From a virus, in the IMG/VR virus record IMGVR_UViG_3300032224_001706, positions 1-21,690 of that record: DNA of 21,690 nt; one strand, given 5' to 3'. Both the position numbers and the translations under genes were made by a program. Under the pieces are notes generated by a model. The model had not been told where the DNA came from. It did no database searches and saw only the letters and a program-made list of their open reading frames with translations. Below are positions 2,322 to 12,362 of the stretch, piece after piece; the stretch's first letter is position 1; each line of letters starts with the position of its first letter.

Positions 2322-3635
2322 TTATTTTTTCTCCTTTTGTTTAATTAAATCAGTTAAAATTTTGTAGTAGTTTGGCACATTTGAGGCTGTGTTTAAAAAT
2401 GCTTTTAACCTTGGTGCTGCTTGTTTTTCTAAATACGAATAAGGGTAAATAGGAACCCAAATCTCGGTGTATTTCATAGTTGGCTTATCTGTATTTTTAC
2501 CCATGGCTTCATACTTTAATCCAAAATACATCAATGTTGCTGTGGTAGAATATTCCATGTCTTTTAAAAAATCATCGTTAATATCTTCTTTTTGAATTGG
2601 TTCAATACCTTTTTTGGAACGAACTAAATTCCATTGTATTTTTTCTGGATAGAGCTGCTCAAAAAGTAATTGACCTTTAGCTTCATTTTTAGAAAAATCT
2701 CTTAAACATGACTGATAAATGTTCATGTAGTTTCCAAACTTAGGGTATAAAGGTGGGTATTTAGCCCTAAATCTTTCGTTTGCTTCATTATCTTGTATAG
2801 GTAGGTACGTTTCATCAATCGGGTAATAATCGTTCGTTAAATCGCTTATAAAGCCTTTTTGAATTAATAATTCTTCTTTTGTAAAAATTTTATGTGGGTT
2901 GTTGGATTGTTTTAAGATATTTCCGTTTTCATCTAGCTTCTTATACAAGAACTCAGGTGAGTTCTTGCCTAGACTTCCAATACTCTCCAATCCTTGCGCT
3001 GTATCTTTTGTGTTTTCGCGAAGCAAAAAAAAATCATTTTCTTCTGCATCAAGGTTTAGGTCAAAATCTAAATTTAAATCTTCTTCAAAAATTTCTTTAT
3101 TTTTATTTTCTTTATTATTTTCTTTATTTACTTTAATATTATTTTCTTTAATATTGTTTGTCTTTGATTTGGTGCTGTCTAGTTCTGCTGTTTGAGCATA
3201 GTCTAGTTCTGCTGTTTCGTCAATACTTGTAAAACTCAATGTAGATAAGGCTTCTATCATTTTCTTCGGATTTATCGAATAATATTTTACAGAAGGTAAT
3301 CCGGCTCTGTGGCAAAAAATAAATTCCTTTTTTTCAAGTATATCAATTGCGTTTGTTTGAGCTCTATATCCAAGGTTTAATTCTGCCCTTAAACTATCAT
3401 AAGTTGCATAGAAAAATTTTGCGTTTTTAGGAGCTTTTGCTTTTGGAAAAACCTTCAATTGATTTGTTCTATCAAAATACTTTTGCCTGCTTACAAGCAA
3501 CGACAAAACAACCGTAGGAACAATTGTTAGTTCTACACACAATCTTGTGTTAACCATAAGAAAAGAATCTTTGGATAGTGTATTTAATAGAATAGCCATT
3601 TGGCTATCGTAACTTAGGTTTAAATCTTCATTCAT
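2322..3635 (-). CDS. Replication-initiator-like winged-helix protein
   Basis: A 437-residue protein built like phage or plasmid replication organisers. There is an N-terminal winged-helix region (about 30-121; helices around TIVPTVVLSLLVSR and FYATYDSLRAELNLGYRAQT, then a KYYSIN wing). A low-complexity linker rich in Asn, Lys and Glu follows (about 155-205), then a charged C-terminal domain (about 270-437). The layout matches families in which an N-terminal DNA-binding domain recognises the origin and the C-terminal part recruits helicase or loader. I cannot name the family. The linker holds a short internal repeat (TAELD twice). The gene is preceded by a promoter and a terminator-like leader (3650-3719), so its expression is probably tightly controlled. 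A plain transcription regulator is the main alternative. Confidence 0.55.
   Translation of the reverse strand: MNEDLNLSYDSQMAILLNTLSKDSFLMVNTRLCVELTIVPTVVLSLLVSRQKYFDRTNQLKVFPKAKAPKNAKFFYATYDSLRAELNLGYRAQTNAIDILEKKEFIFCHRAGLPSVKYYSINPKKMIEALSTLSFTSIDETAELDYAQTAELDSTKSKTNNIKENNIKVNKENNKENKNKEIFEEDLNLDFDLNLDAEENDFFLLRENTKDTAQGLESIGSLGKNSPEFLYKKLDENGNILKQSNNPHKIFTKEELLIQKGFISDLTNDYYPIDETYLPIQDNEANERFRAKYPPLYPKFGNYMNIYQSCLRDFSKNEAKGQLLFEQLYPEKIQWNLVRSKKGIEPIQKEDINDDFLKDMEYSTTATLMYFGLKYEAMGKNTDKPTMKYTEIWVPIYPYSYLEKQAAPRLKAFLNTASNVPNYYKILTDLIKQKEKK
3177..3217. repeat. 17-bp direct repeat inside replication gene
   Basis: GTCTAGTTCTGCTGTTT occurs at 3177-3193 and again at 3201-3217 (period 24 nt). 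It duplicates 8 codons (TAELD on the coding strand) at the start of the low-complexity linker. It looks like a replication-slippage duplication. Iteron function is possible but only two copies are present. Confidence 0.6.
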
Positions 3636-3645
3636 AATTTTGCAT
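3628..3645 (-). CDS. Possible 5-codon leader ORF before replication gene
   Basis: On the minus strand ATG CAA AAT TAT GAA TGA (MQNYE) begins right after the T-run of the leader hairpin. It overlaps the replication gene's ATG in another frame. A ribosome starting here would run over the true start, so it could tune translation. It may equally be chance in AT-rich sequence. Confidence 0.15.
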   Translation of the reverse strand: MQNYE

Positions 3646-3649
3646 AAAA

Positions 3650-3719
3650 AAAGCCACTGACTGAATATCTTTAGAAAGGAGGCACTACCAAACCTCGAAG
3701 ATAAACAGCCAATGGCTTT
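3650..3719 (-). promoter_or_regulatory. Structured leader / conditional-terminator candidate
   Basis: On the minus strand AAAGCCATTGGCTG (3719-3706) pairs with CAGTCAGTGGCTTT (3663-3650). Inner helices follow: ATCTT (3702-3698) with AAGAT (3671-3667), and GAGG (3696-3693) with CCTC (3682-3679). The outer stem runs straight into seven T residues (3652-3646), and the replication gene's ATG is 10 nt further on. Two positions that are C.A mismatches on the + strand become G.U wobbles in the minus-strand RNA, so the structure is tuned to the gene-sense transcript. An upstream copy of the 5' arm start, AAAGCCAC (3763-3756), can also pair with the 3' arm. This fits an attenuator or other structured regulator; the ligand or antisense partner is unknown. 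Confidence 0.65.
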
Positions 3720-3775
3720 ATTCTAAATGTCGTTAATTTTGATAGTTTATTTTTTGTGGCTTTCTAATTCCGCTA

Positions 3776-3804
3776 CAAACATACCTAAAAAAACGAATTA
3801 CAAA
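3776..3804 (-). promoter_or_regulatory. Promoter for replication gene (TTTG-N17-TATGTTTG)
   Basis: On the minus strand TTTG (3804-3801), a 17-nt spacer and TATGTTTG (3783-3776) match the Bacteroidota -33/-7 consensus TAnnTTTG. Transcription would start near 3770 and give a leader of about 135 nt before the replication gene. Confidence 0.65.
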
Positions 3805-3820
3805 ATATTTTTTTGTAAAT

Positions 3821-4573
3821 TTATTTTATTCCCAATGAAAATAAATAATCTTTTTGAACTATTGCTTTGATATAGCAGCGATTAAATCGAAAAAAAGTTT
3901 TTTTACGACCATCTAAAGATTGGTGTAAATCATACTCTAAAGGTAAATCACAATTTTTATCAAATATGACAATATCTCCAACTGACACACCTTCGGCATC
4001 TTTCAAATCGTGTCTTACATCTTTATTACCATTTGTAATGTAATATTCTTTGTTTACTGATCCTAAATAAACAACCTTACCAAACTTATCAGATTTGAAT
4101 TTTGATAAATGAGAAGGAAGGTCAGAAAGAAGTACAGATTCCGAAACATTTTGTTCTACTGGTTCGCAAATAACAAGTCCATTAAGCGGAATGACATTTT
4201 CGTTTCGTATTGATACAAAAAGGTCACTATAATCAAGCAAAAAATATTTGTCATTATTTTCATCAATAAATGTTCTGCTCGTATCTCCGTCATCAAAACA
4301 ATATAAAATAGATTCGTAACTTGAAATAACAACATCGCCAATTTTAGCTTCAATTGTTGTTAACCAAGGCATAGCAAAAAAATTCAATTTATTACAAATA
4401 TTAATAATAGTACCTCTTGTAGGTGCGTGCATTTCGGGCGCAGCTTTGTGTTCAATAAAAATTTTTTGCCCATCAACAAAAAGAAGTTCGTCAATTTCTC
4501 TTGAGGGTTTTACTAAAACTTTGTTTGGCCTAAGTTTAAGACCTAAAATTTCATGTTTGGTTAATTTAATCAT
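3821..4573 (-). CDS. Tandem GroES-like co-chaperonin candidate
   Basis: A 250-residue protein that reads as two GroES-like folds in a row. Repeat 1 (about 12-123) has LKLRPNKVLVKPS, then a loop, GTIINI, KIGDVVISSYES and a closing YFLLDYSDLFVSI. Repeat 2 (about 128-239) has IPLNGLVICEPVE, a longer loop, GKVVYLGS, VSVGDIVIFDKN and a closing RFNRCYIKAIV. These match the GroES order: RPL..RVLVK, a mobile loop, G.VV.VG, VKVGD.V.F, and a final ..DILA. GroES itself is about 95 residues, so this is double length. Phage co-chaperonins (such as T4 gp31) redirect host GroEL to fold the capsid protein; that role is inferred here. It has its own divergent promoter and is separated from the replication gene by another promoter. 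The similarity is remote and needs a profile or structure check. Confidence 0.55.
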   Translation of the reverse strand: MIKLTKHEILGLKLRPNKVLVKPSREIDELLFVDGQKIFIEHKAAPEMHAPTRGTIINICNKLNFFAMPWLTTIEAKIGDVVISSYESILYCFDDGDTSRTFIDENNDKYFLLDYSDLFVSIRNENVIPLNGLVICEPVEQNVSESVLLSDLPSHLSKFKSDKFGKVVYLGSVNKEYYITNGNKDVRHDLKDAEGVSVGDIVIFDKNCDLPLEYDLHQSLDGRKKTFFRFNRCYIKAIVQKDYLFSLGIK

Positions 4574-9482: not shown

Positions 9483-12362
9483 ATGGAATTGGATTTCGAT
9501 AATTTTTCGTGGGATAAAATGCTCGCGGACACATACAACATGAAACCAAAACAAGACCCAAGAGTTTTGTATGAGAGCGTGTTTAGCTTCAAGGAATATC
9601 ACGAAGATTTACAAGATGTAGATGTAAGGAAATTTCTCAGATTTATACCTATGTGCTATGATAAAAATAGCCCACTTCGACAACACATTACAGAAACAAA
9701 TCGTTTAAAAATAAAAGCAGCCGATTTAGCTGGATTTGTTCGTCAAGAAGATGGACGTTTTTTAAGCAACGTAGAAAGCGTATTGGCAGGAGAAAGTGAG
9801 ATTGCTAACAGAATGATTATTCGTTACGTTACGCAACATAAAAACAGCCTTTACACTCGTTTTGTAATGTATCAAGAGTTATACGAAAACGAAATGCAAA
9901 AGCTCCGAAGCGGAGAAAAGGGAGTGGCCAAGATTTCAGAATTTGATACACTAGGAGATAGGCTTGACGAAATACGTCAAGAATTATTTAGCCAAGACAA
10001 TAATCAAAAATTACATCAAGACTTTATTCAATTTTATTTTGAAGATAAACTTTTGCTTCGTCCCGAAGACATAGCTGAAAAATTAAGAAAAGGAGAGCAA
10101 CCAGTTACTCCACCCGAAAAAAAAAAATTCGAAAAGCAGCCAAGTCAAAAGATACTTAACGAATACCAAAAAGAAGATAGTTACGTTATCATAAACGAAG
10201 ACCCTGATTTACACCCAATACACATAAAATTACCAAAGTGTGAAGACCCAACTCAAGCAGATGGATATGGATTGCCAATAAAAGACCAAAAGTTTAGCAT
10301 TGTTAAATGGCCAAATAAGTTAGAGTATTTATTATCAACAGTAGAAAAAATTGAAGATGTTTGGGCAACATTAAGCGCAAATCAAGCTGAATATAAAAAA
10401 GAAATACGTTGGATTGAAGACCAATGGTACTACACATTAAATGGATATTGGTTTTATAATAATGGGAAACTTACCTACTTAGATGGTTGGCATTACAACT
10501 TTTTAAACTTTTGGAAAATTGCTGGAACAATAAATCCCGAATACCGCGACAGAGATAGAAAATGGTATCATGGAATAAAATACGCTTATACTACAACCGA
10601 ATACCCACAAAAAGACGATAAGGGTAAATTAGTATATCAAAACGAATTAAAAAAAATCCTTAAAATGCAAGATGCAAAAAGGAGAGTATTTTTGGGATAT
10701 ACAGACCCAAAAGGTAGAAGAGCGGGAGATAGCAATAAACACCTTTGCGCCCAATACATTGAAACAATAACCCACTTTGGTATAATATCAGGTATAGTTT
10801 CAAGTAGTGGTGGCCATGCAAAAGATAAATTGTTTGATGAAATTTTAGTTTCGTCTTGGCAGAAACAAGCGTTCTTTTTTAGGCCAATGACTTCAAGTAA
10901 TGAAAACCCCAATACAGAAATAAACTTTTCAGCAAGTAGAAAAAGAGCCGACAATAGTAAAATGCAACTGCAGCTCAAATCAAAATTGGATCACTCACCA
11001 ACAGCAACAGCAAGTTACTATGATGGAGGTAAGTTATTTTGGTTGCTTTGTGATGAATCAGGAAAAGCTAAAGATATTGATGTTTACGAGCGGCACCAAC
11101 AATTAAAACAGTGTGTAGCCCAAGGAGCAGGTATAAATATTTTTGGTTTTATGGGGTTACCTTCAACAGTAGGAGAAATGGAAGGTGCAGGTGGACGAGG
11201 TTACTATAATATTTGCAAAGATAGTTTTTTTGAAAAACGAAACATATCTGGGCAGACTACAACAGGACTTATGCTTTTATACATTTCTTGTTTAGAAGGA
11301 TTGGAAGGATTTGTAGATGAATATGGCTATTCAGTAATAAATAATCCAACACCACAACAAGCTAAATTTATTAATAAAAATTATGGTTCAAAAGAATATA
11401 TAAACAGCACAAGGGCAGCATTATTATTAGACCCAAAAGACATTGATAAGTATAACGAGTTTGTAAGACAAAACCCTATTTATTTTAAAGAATGTTTTAG
11501 GACAACCGATGGTGATATAGGTTTTAACACCAAAATAATAAACGAAAGACTTGATGAAATATCAATGAATAAACACCTTTGGATAAGAAAAGGAAATTTT
11601 TATTGGACAGGAGAAAAGTACAATAGTAGAGTTGAGTTTATGGACATTCCAAATGGAAAGTGGGAAGTCAGCCAACTTTTACCATCAAATGTTAGTAGTA
11701 AATTTAATTGGACAACTATAAACGGAGAACCACAAAGAGTTCCATTTGCACCAAAACACATTACTTGTTGCGATCCTTACAAACAAGAAAAAACAGTAAG
11801 TGGTAGAATGTCCGATTTAGGTATTGCAACAGCGTATGATTACGACCAAAGCGTTGATGGTGGTAAAGAACCAATGGATTGGCAAAGCTACAGATTAACG
11901 TGTACATATTTAGGAAGACCGGGTTCAACAGATGATCAATATGACGATGTTTTATTGCAAGCAGTTTATTACAACTCATGGATTTATCCTGAAATAAACG
12001 TAGCTGAAATAATACCATTTATGACTAAGATTGGATTTGCAGGGTATTTTCTTTATGATTACGATTGGAAAACAGGAAAACTTAGGGTAACACCAGGATT
12101 TAATTCACAAGGAGAAAAAAAACAAAATCTATTTAATACAGTAAGAAATTATATTTCTGTGCATGGACACAAAGATAAGCATGCTGATTTTTTACAACAA
12201 TGTAAAGATATTTCAAGCATGGATGAAATGACAGATTTCGATTTGTTTACCGCAGGAGCAGGGGCATTAATGGGATGTAGTAGTATAATGGTACAATCTC
12301 AAAAATCAAAAACAGAAGTAGTTAGGAAGCCAAATATGTTCAAAAAGAGAAAATATACTTAA
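9483..12362 (+). CDS. Terminase large subunit, unusually long
   Basis: A 959-residue DNA-packaging motor that would pump phage DNA into the procapsid and cut it. The ATPase half has a degenerate Walker A-like GRRAGDSNK (about 411-419) and a Walker B strand KLFWLLCDES with Asp524-Glu525. The RNase H-like nuclease half has CCDPYKQ (Asp764), an acidic strand end near EINVAE (837-842) and MTDFDLFTAGAGALM (Asp918/Asp920). Typical large subunits are about 400-700 residues; the extra length is an N-terminal region (about 1-270) with no recognised motif, which may hold small-terminase or portal-docking functions. Walker A lacks the usual GKS/T, but lysine or arginine alternatives occur in terminases. 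No separate small terminase gene is seen upstream. Confidence 0.85.
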   Translation: MELDFDNFSWDKMLADTYNMKPKQDPRVLYESVFSFKEYHEDLQDVDVRKFLRFIPMCYDKNSPLRQHITETNRLKIKAADLAGFVRQEDGRFLSNVESVLAGESEIANRMIIRYVTQHKNSLYTRFVMYQELYENEMQKLRSGEKGVAKISEFDTLGDRLDEIRQELFSQDNNQKLHQDFIQFYFEDKLLLRPEDIAEKLRKGEQPVTPPEKKKFEKQPSQKILNEYQKEDSYVIINEDPDLHPIHIKLPKCEDPTQADGYGLPIKDQKFSIVKWPNKLEYLLSTVEKIEDVWATLSANQAEYKKEIRWIEDQWYYTLNGYWFYNNGKLTYLDGWHYNFLNFWKIAGTINPEYRDRDRKWYHGIKYAYTTTEYPQKDDKGKLVYQNELKKILKMQDAKRRVFLGYTDPKGRRAGDSNKHLCAQYIETITHFGIISGIVSSSGGHAKDKLFDEILVSSWQKQAFFFRPMTSSNENPNTEINFSASRKRADNSKMQLQLKSKLDHSPTATASYYDGGKLFWLLCDESGKAKDIDVYERHQQLKQCVAQGAGINIFGFMGLPSTVGEMEGAGGRGYYNICKDSFFEKRNISGQTTTGLMLLYISCLEGLEGFVDEYGYSVINNPTPQQAKFINKNYGSKEYINSTRAALLLDPKDIDKYNEFVRQNPIYFKECFRTTDGDIGFNTKIINERLDEISMNKHLWIRKGNFYWTGEKYNSRVEFMDIPNGKWEVSQLLPSNVSSKFNWTTINGEPQRVPFAPKHITCCDPYKQEKTVSGRMSDLGIATAYDYDQSVDGGKEPMDWQSYRLTCTYLGRPGSTDDQYDDVLLQAVYYNSWIYPEINVAEIIPFMTKIGFAGYFLYDYDWKTGKLRVTPGFNSQGEKKQNLFNTVRNYISVHGHKDKHADFLQQCKDISSMDEMTDFDLFTAGAGALMGCSSIMVQSQKSKTEVVRKPNMFKKRKYT

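Follow-up and report, generated by a model that had tools for sequence, protein, structure and literature searches.

What decides whether transcription that starts upstream of a phage replication gene continues into that gene? Most known cases in which RNA controls replication initiation through premature termination come from Gram-positive plasmids or from the phages and satellites of enterobacteria, and the locus studied here raises the question for a phage of a different kind. The window (the whole stretch of DNA that was analysed) is a 21.7-kb phage fragment whose portal resembles the portals of Cellulophaga and Flavobacterium phages (22–27% identity) and whose + strand carries structural genes from about 4.6 kb on. 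On its minus strand a GroES-like gene (4573-3821) is followed by the leader, then by the replication-initiation gene (3635-2322) and by small genes, among them one for a serine recombinase. The replication assignment of 2322-3635 was made because the encoded protein matches phrog_9773 and because its homologue in a related contig, L002, matches both the phrog_270 replication initiation protein (E = 4e-9) and the phrog_186 DnaD-like helicase loader (E = 2e-7). The features of the locus are as follows.

2322-3635, minus strand: replication-initiation gene, 437 aa (phrog_9773, "replication initiation O-like", E = 2e-4)
3628-3645, minus strand: 5-codon ORF overlapping the gene start, downstream of the terminator; its ATG is TTG in L002
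3646-3652, minus strand: U tract of seven residues (six in L002), read from the sequence
3650-3719, minus strand: predicted terminator hairpin with a 14-bp stem, a UAUCUU/AAGAUA helix and a GAGGU/GCCUC helix, -32.0 kcal/mol
3671-3678, minus strand: CUUUCUAA, made up of the internal loop (CUUUCUA) and an A from the middle helix; putative early-fold partner of UUAGAAAG
3684-3691, minus strand: apical loop UUGGUAGU (L002: UCGUUGC); both it and the upstream segment differ between the phages, and their complementarity is kept
3741-3746, minus strand: upstream segment ACUAUC (L002: GCAAC), putative partner of the apical loop
3756-3767, minus strand: 5' leader element UUAGAAAGCCAC, identical in L002
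3776-3804, minus strand: putative promoter of the Bacteroidota sigma-A type, TTTG-N17-TATGTTTG, with an expected RNA start near 3771
3798-3818, minus strand: inverted repeat TTACAAAA-AAATA-TTTTGTAA; the -33 box lies in its right arm
3821-4573, minus strand: gene distantly like that of the co-chaperonin GroES; its homologue in the contig L010 matches phrog_13932 weakly (E = 0.004)

The hairpin has the makeup of an intrinsic (rho-independent) terminator, in that a G+C-containing structure with a 14-bp stem is followed directly by seven U. A reading made from the letters of the window without database searches (herein referred to as the sequence-only reading) had described such a stem with inner helices, seven T residues and the ATG behind them, and all of these were found: the stem occupies 3719-3706/3663-3650, the inner helices 3703-3698/3671-3666 and 3696-3692/3683-3679, and the ATG of the replication gene lies at 3635, 10 nt past the U tract. 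Folding of the minus strand from 3770 to 3628, which the same reading had proposed as a check, gave a 143-nt RNA of -34.7 kcal/mol (z = -3.9) that was equalled by 0 of 200 shuffled sequences, and the window has four hairpins with a T6 tail and 12 or more ungapped pairs, vs none in 20 shuffles. The structure is better formed in the gene-sense RNA, where it consists of 22 Watson–Crick and 3 G-U pairs; in the + strand copy the G-U pairs are broken and the hairpin falls to -20.6 kcal/mol, vs -32.0 for the sense strand. The leader matched none of the 4227 Rfam families at the gathering threshold.

One relative of the locus was found, the 54-kb IMG/VR contig L002, in which promoter, leader and hairpin are all kept. 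All 25 hairpin pairs form in both phages, and only 3 of the 50 paired bases differ, against a background divergence of 18% at the fourfold-degenerate sites of three shared genes (P = 0.012); each of the three changes preserves its pair (n = 2 sequences). The argument that the G-U pairs mark the gene-sense RNA as the functional strand is strengthened by this comparison, since the L002 hairpin has 21 Watson–Crick and 4 G-U pairs and none is broken on the sense strand in either phage. What follows the leader differs: in L002 it precedes a separate 118-aa protein and then a 421-aa initiator, which has its C-terminal part in common with the 437-aa protein of the window and a different N-terminal part. 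The window protein is fusion-like, its N-terminal part being 29% like the 118-aa protein and its C-terminal part 96% like the initiator. As the same leader stands before different arrangements, it appears to have stayed in place while the start of the following gene was rearranged. The region in question spans 4974-6598 in L002 and 2322-3635 in the window, and its neighbourhoods are near-identical.

The comparison has this depth after several searches. Queries with the Rep protein, the GroES-like protein, a 131-aa protein and the leader pattern returned the L002 contig alone among viral contigs, and a terminase query returned relatives at 62% and ~35% that are without the leader. A scan of genome contigs with a Rep alignment returned nothing, and the annotated phage genomes held neither similar DNA nor a similar Rep protein. 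A covariance model of the leader (R1), run against phage records, recovered just the window and L002; a further weak match, in L034, proved to be a different terminator. The 25 other loci retrieved by an element-pattern search were all judged to be chance matches from their fold and coding context, and a BLAST match to the leader in L010 falls in coding sequence.

The promoter agrees with the pattern TTTG-N17-TAnnTTTG, the Bacteroidota -7 box being TAnnTTTG at -12 to -5 (PMC9723704). Strict matches to the consensus number 4 in the window vs 2.4 expected from shuffles, so the consensus alone is near chance; support for the promoter therefore rests on its conservation, as the block 3829-3754, which includes the 5' element, is identical to L002 at 75 of 76 positions (one change in 76, P = 4e-6). 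The promoter that the sequence-only reading placed at 3804-3776 is thus present and kept in the relative, but as a consensus match by itself it says little. The inverted repeat that reaches into it (3818-3798) differs from L002 by one base, in the left arm; it may be an operator, or else a weak terminator for the upstream gene. The stretch from the U tract to the ATG of the replication gene shows no promoter match, and transcripts that serve the gene should therefore cross the hairpin. Because the stem survives in the relative and no promoter is evident behind it, the locus is best read as a putative conditional terminator acting on the replication gene. In this the terminator part of the earlier proposal stands, whereas the competitor and the short ORF that accompanied it are not supported. 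The 5-codon ORF is present and overlaps the gene start as described, but its start codon is lost in L002; as a regulator (attenuation by a leader peptide) it was rejected, for it lies after the terminator and its ATG is not conserved.

The sequence-only reading had nominated a copy of the 5' arm, AAAGCCAC (3763-3756), as competitor for the 3' arm. It is indeed fully complementary to that arm, yet forcing the pairing costs 8.8 kcal/mol (-29.7 vs -38.5), its probability is about 1%, and the base of the stem beside the U tract would remain paired. Pairing of the upstream AGCCA with the 5' arm of the stem is worse still (-22.2 kcal/mol) and was discarded. The competing element that is supported is instead the pairing of the 5' leader with the apical and internal loops. 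Within UUAGAAAGCCAC, whose AAAGCCAC portion complements the 3' arm, UUAGAAAG complements CUUUCUAA of the hairpin in an 8-bp helix that is identical in both phages. Changes in the transcribed leader relative to L002 concentrate in the apical loop and in the segment about 50 nt upstream of it, and the two remain complementary: ACUAUC faces GGUAGU in the window and GCAAC faces GUUGC in L002. From the window to L002 there are three compensatory changes (C-G to G-C, U-A to C-G, U-G to A-U), two pairs are unchanged and one pair is co-deleted; the A-U pair that comes next in the window corresponds to an A.C mismatch in L002. Pairings across the two phages are worse than those within each.

In each phage the nascent RNA is predicted to fold best with these two helices (the early fold) as long as fewer than about 8 nt of the 3' arm have emerged; beyond that the terminator wins. 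An alternative fold of the kind expected of an attenuator, which precedes the terminator and is preserved in the relative, was thereby predicted (n = 2 sequences). Shuffling of the 5' leader reproduced the two helices in 0.2% (window) and 1.7% (L002) of trials, and two random 5-mers pair by Watson–Crick rules alone with P = 0.0017; these figures are suggestive only, because the pairing was noticed before they were computed and because the 8-bp helix is common to both phages. A control that shuffled L002 alone is weak: 61% of its trials paired five or more bases of the apical loop with upstream sequence. At full length the terminator is more stable than the early fold by about 15 kcal/mol, and the 5' arm of the stem stays mostly free in the early fold. 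With this lower stability and free arm, the early fold alone is unlikely to prevent termination and probably slows rather than stops it. It is also possible that, in the folded RNA, the loop/upstream pairing forms a pseudoknot atop the finished 14-bp hairpin.

We hypothesize, with slightly better than even confidence, that the leader (3771-3636) is a cis-acting transcription attenuator of the phage replication operon. RNA polymerase would start near 3771, and the first ~100 nt would adopt an early structure in which UUAGAAAG pairs with CUUUCUAA, ACUAUC(AAA) pairs with (UUU)GGUAGU and a small AGCC-AUU-GGCU hairpin forms. As the 3' arm (3663-3650) emerges, the far more stable 14-bp hairpin would replace this structure and transcription would stop in the U tract, releasing a terminated RNA of about 126 nt. 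Termination would be the default, with some polymerases reading through into the replication gene; most would do so if a phage or host factor stabilised the early fold or modified the polymerase. Three elements of this scheme are inferred: a working terminator, an early fold able to delay or prevent termination, and a signal that sets the ratio; full control would need a stabilising factor, an antisense RNA or modification of the polymerase. There is an outside chance that the early fold represents a new aptamer-like class of RNA in Bacteroidota phages that decides transcription of the replication genes by binding a signal from phage or host, be it a metabolite, a protein, or the 16S rRNA tail/bS21 system.

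Three further features bear on other readings of the leader.

3614-3617, plus strand: TTAG, weak candidate -33 box of an antisense promoter; not kept in L002
3635-3642, plus strand: TAATTTTG, candidate antisense -7 box, kept in L002; an antisense RNA would start near 3647
3673-3682, minus strand: CCUCCUUUCU (CCTCCTTTCT), a 16S rRNA 3' tail copy in the hairpin, overlapping CUUUCUAA

Promoter, structured RNA and strong terminator make up a complete unit, which could also produce a discrete ~126-nt phage small RNA with targets in trans, the replication gene being fed by constitutive read-through; the unpaired CUUUCUA and the 5' tail would be available for pairing, and IsrK of Gifsy-1, of which the terminated and read-through forms both act, is a precedent (PMC4825925). 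Set against this are the short distance of 10 nt between the unit and a gene for which no other promoter is visible, the lack of an identified target and the lack of a further copy in the phage records searched with the covariance model. We regard such a small RNA as unlikely; on this reading the pairing of the 5' leader with the loops would belong to its folded or pseudoknotted form. The hairpin might also serve mainly to insulate the operon from upstream transcription, or to protect or expose the mRNA (as an RNase III site or in translation control), the loop complementarity being coincidental. The upstream gene on the same strand does end at 3821 and is followed by just the AT-rich repeat, the start-codon region is A/U-rich, and a stem of this length is sufficient for RNase III. 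An insulator in this place would, however, shut off the intervening promoter (3804-3776) as well, and coincidence sits poorly with changes that are paired across the two partner segments, so that we hold this reading to be quite unlikely.

Under control of the pT181/pIP501 type, a + strand antisense RNA from near 3647 would bind the leader and force the terminator, restraining replication as copies rise. Its -7 box (TAATTTTG) is perfect, conserved in L002 and placed for a start at the base of the hairpin, the loops could be first contact sites, and RNAIII of pIP501 offers a precedent (PMC4981023). The -33 box is weak and missing in L002, though, and conservation of TAATTTTG is equally explained by the start-codon context (CAAAATTATG); a search for strict-consensus antisense promoters facing the leader found none, the relaxed match being the conserved -7 box with an unconserved -33. 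No terminator is evident for the antisense RNA, and the + strand hairpin is weaker, with 3–4 broken pairs. This form of control is distinctly unlikely here. A last proposal is that the leader mimics the 16S rRNA 3' tail (CACCUCCUUUCU in L002, CCUCCUUUCU in the window) and senses or titrates ribosomes, the bS21-S18-S6 proteins or extended Shine–Dalgarno sequences. In Bacteroidia, bS21/bS18/bS6 sequester this tail, and regulation of rpsU works through an extended Shine–Dalgarno sequence (PMC9976891, PMC8710568). Positions 4925-4943 of L002 (CACCTCCTTTCTAAAGATA, 19 nt) are identical to the 16S rRNA gene ends of several Acidobacteria and Chloroflexi, which may not be the end found in the host, and the complementary UUAGAAAG at the 5' end of the leader resembles part of a matching extended Shine–Dalgarno sequence. 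The window copy, however, has two mismatches to CACCTCCTTTCTA, and 30% of shuffled windows reach the same somewhere; no bS21 gene was found in the phage records searched, and 0 of 15 viral loci retrieved with a 16S-tail-plus-U-tract pattern repeat the architecture on inspection. The inner helices already account for CCUC and AAAG, and pairing with the 5' element accounts for CUUUCUAA; with the segment so explained, mimicry is very improbable.

If the leader is an attenuator, the kind of system is known, while the RNA family appears to be undescribed in the sources searched. Plasmid pT181 has a terminator in the leader of the gene for its replication initiator, RepC, together with alternative leader folds. 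The same layout is found for RepR of pIP501 (PMC4981023); these plasmids combine Rep proteins with an antisense RNA, whereas the leader here precedes a phage O/DnaD-like initiator and has no supported antisense promoter. In P4 immunity (CI RNA, seqA/seqC), as summarised in PMC4825925, premature termination within an untranslated leader keeps the replication genes of a phage-like element silent, and according to that summary the P4 leader also holds mutually complementary segments. P4 differs in having a processed, trans-acting CI RNA and a host of another phylum, the present leader being known from sequence alone; the likeness is one of layout, and no sequence relation is claimed. IsrK of prophage Gifsy-1 is similar as a phage RNA that exists in terminated and read-through forms (PMC4825925), but its targets are the translation of its own read-through form and an antirepressor, and replication is not among them. 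Terminator-type riboswitches share the order of an early fold of about 100 nt and then a competing terminator; unlike them, this leader has no Rfam match and no identified ligand, its early fold is less stable and the 5' arm of its terminator is unburied. P4 and pIP501 are the nearest working models by analogy, not as systems to which the leader is assigned. A switch-like leader that lies outside Rfam and whose early fold covaries would add poorly studied environmental phages of the Bacteroidota type to the groups in which initiator genes are attenuated, and the switch reading makes precise predictions, namely the behaviour of compensatory mutants and a terminated RNA of ~126 nt.

Some minor observations concern the surroundings. 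Two AGCCA-N1-2-TGGCT palindromes occur, at 3717-3707 in the 5' arm of the stem and at 3605-3594 in the start of the gene, where 0.09 are expected in the window; they were rejected as binding sites, as the copy at 3605-3594 is absent from the L002 sequence. The GroES-like gene (3821-4573) is also present in the ~35% terminase relatives, where it lies near the terminase and not near replication genes. In L002, downstream of the replication module, positions 9516-10127 encode an antirestriction protein ArdA (Pfam E = 1e-10).
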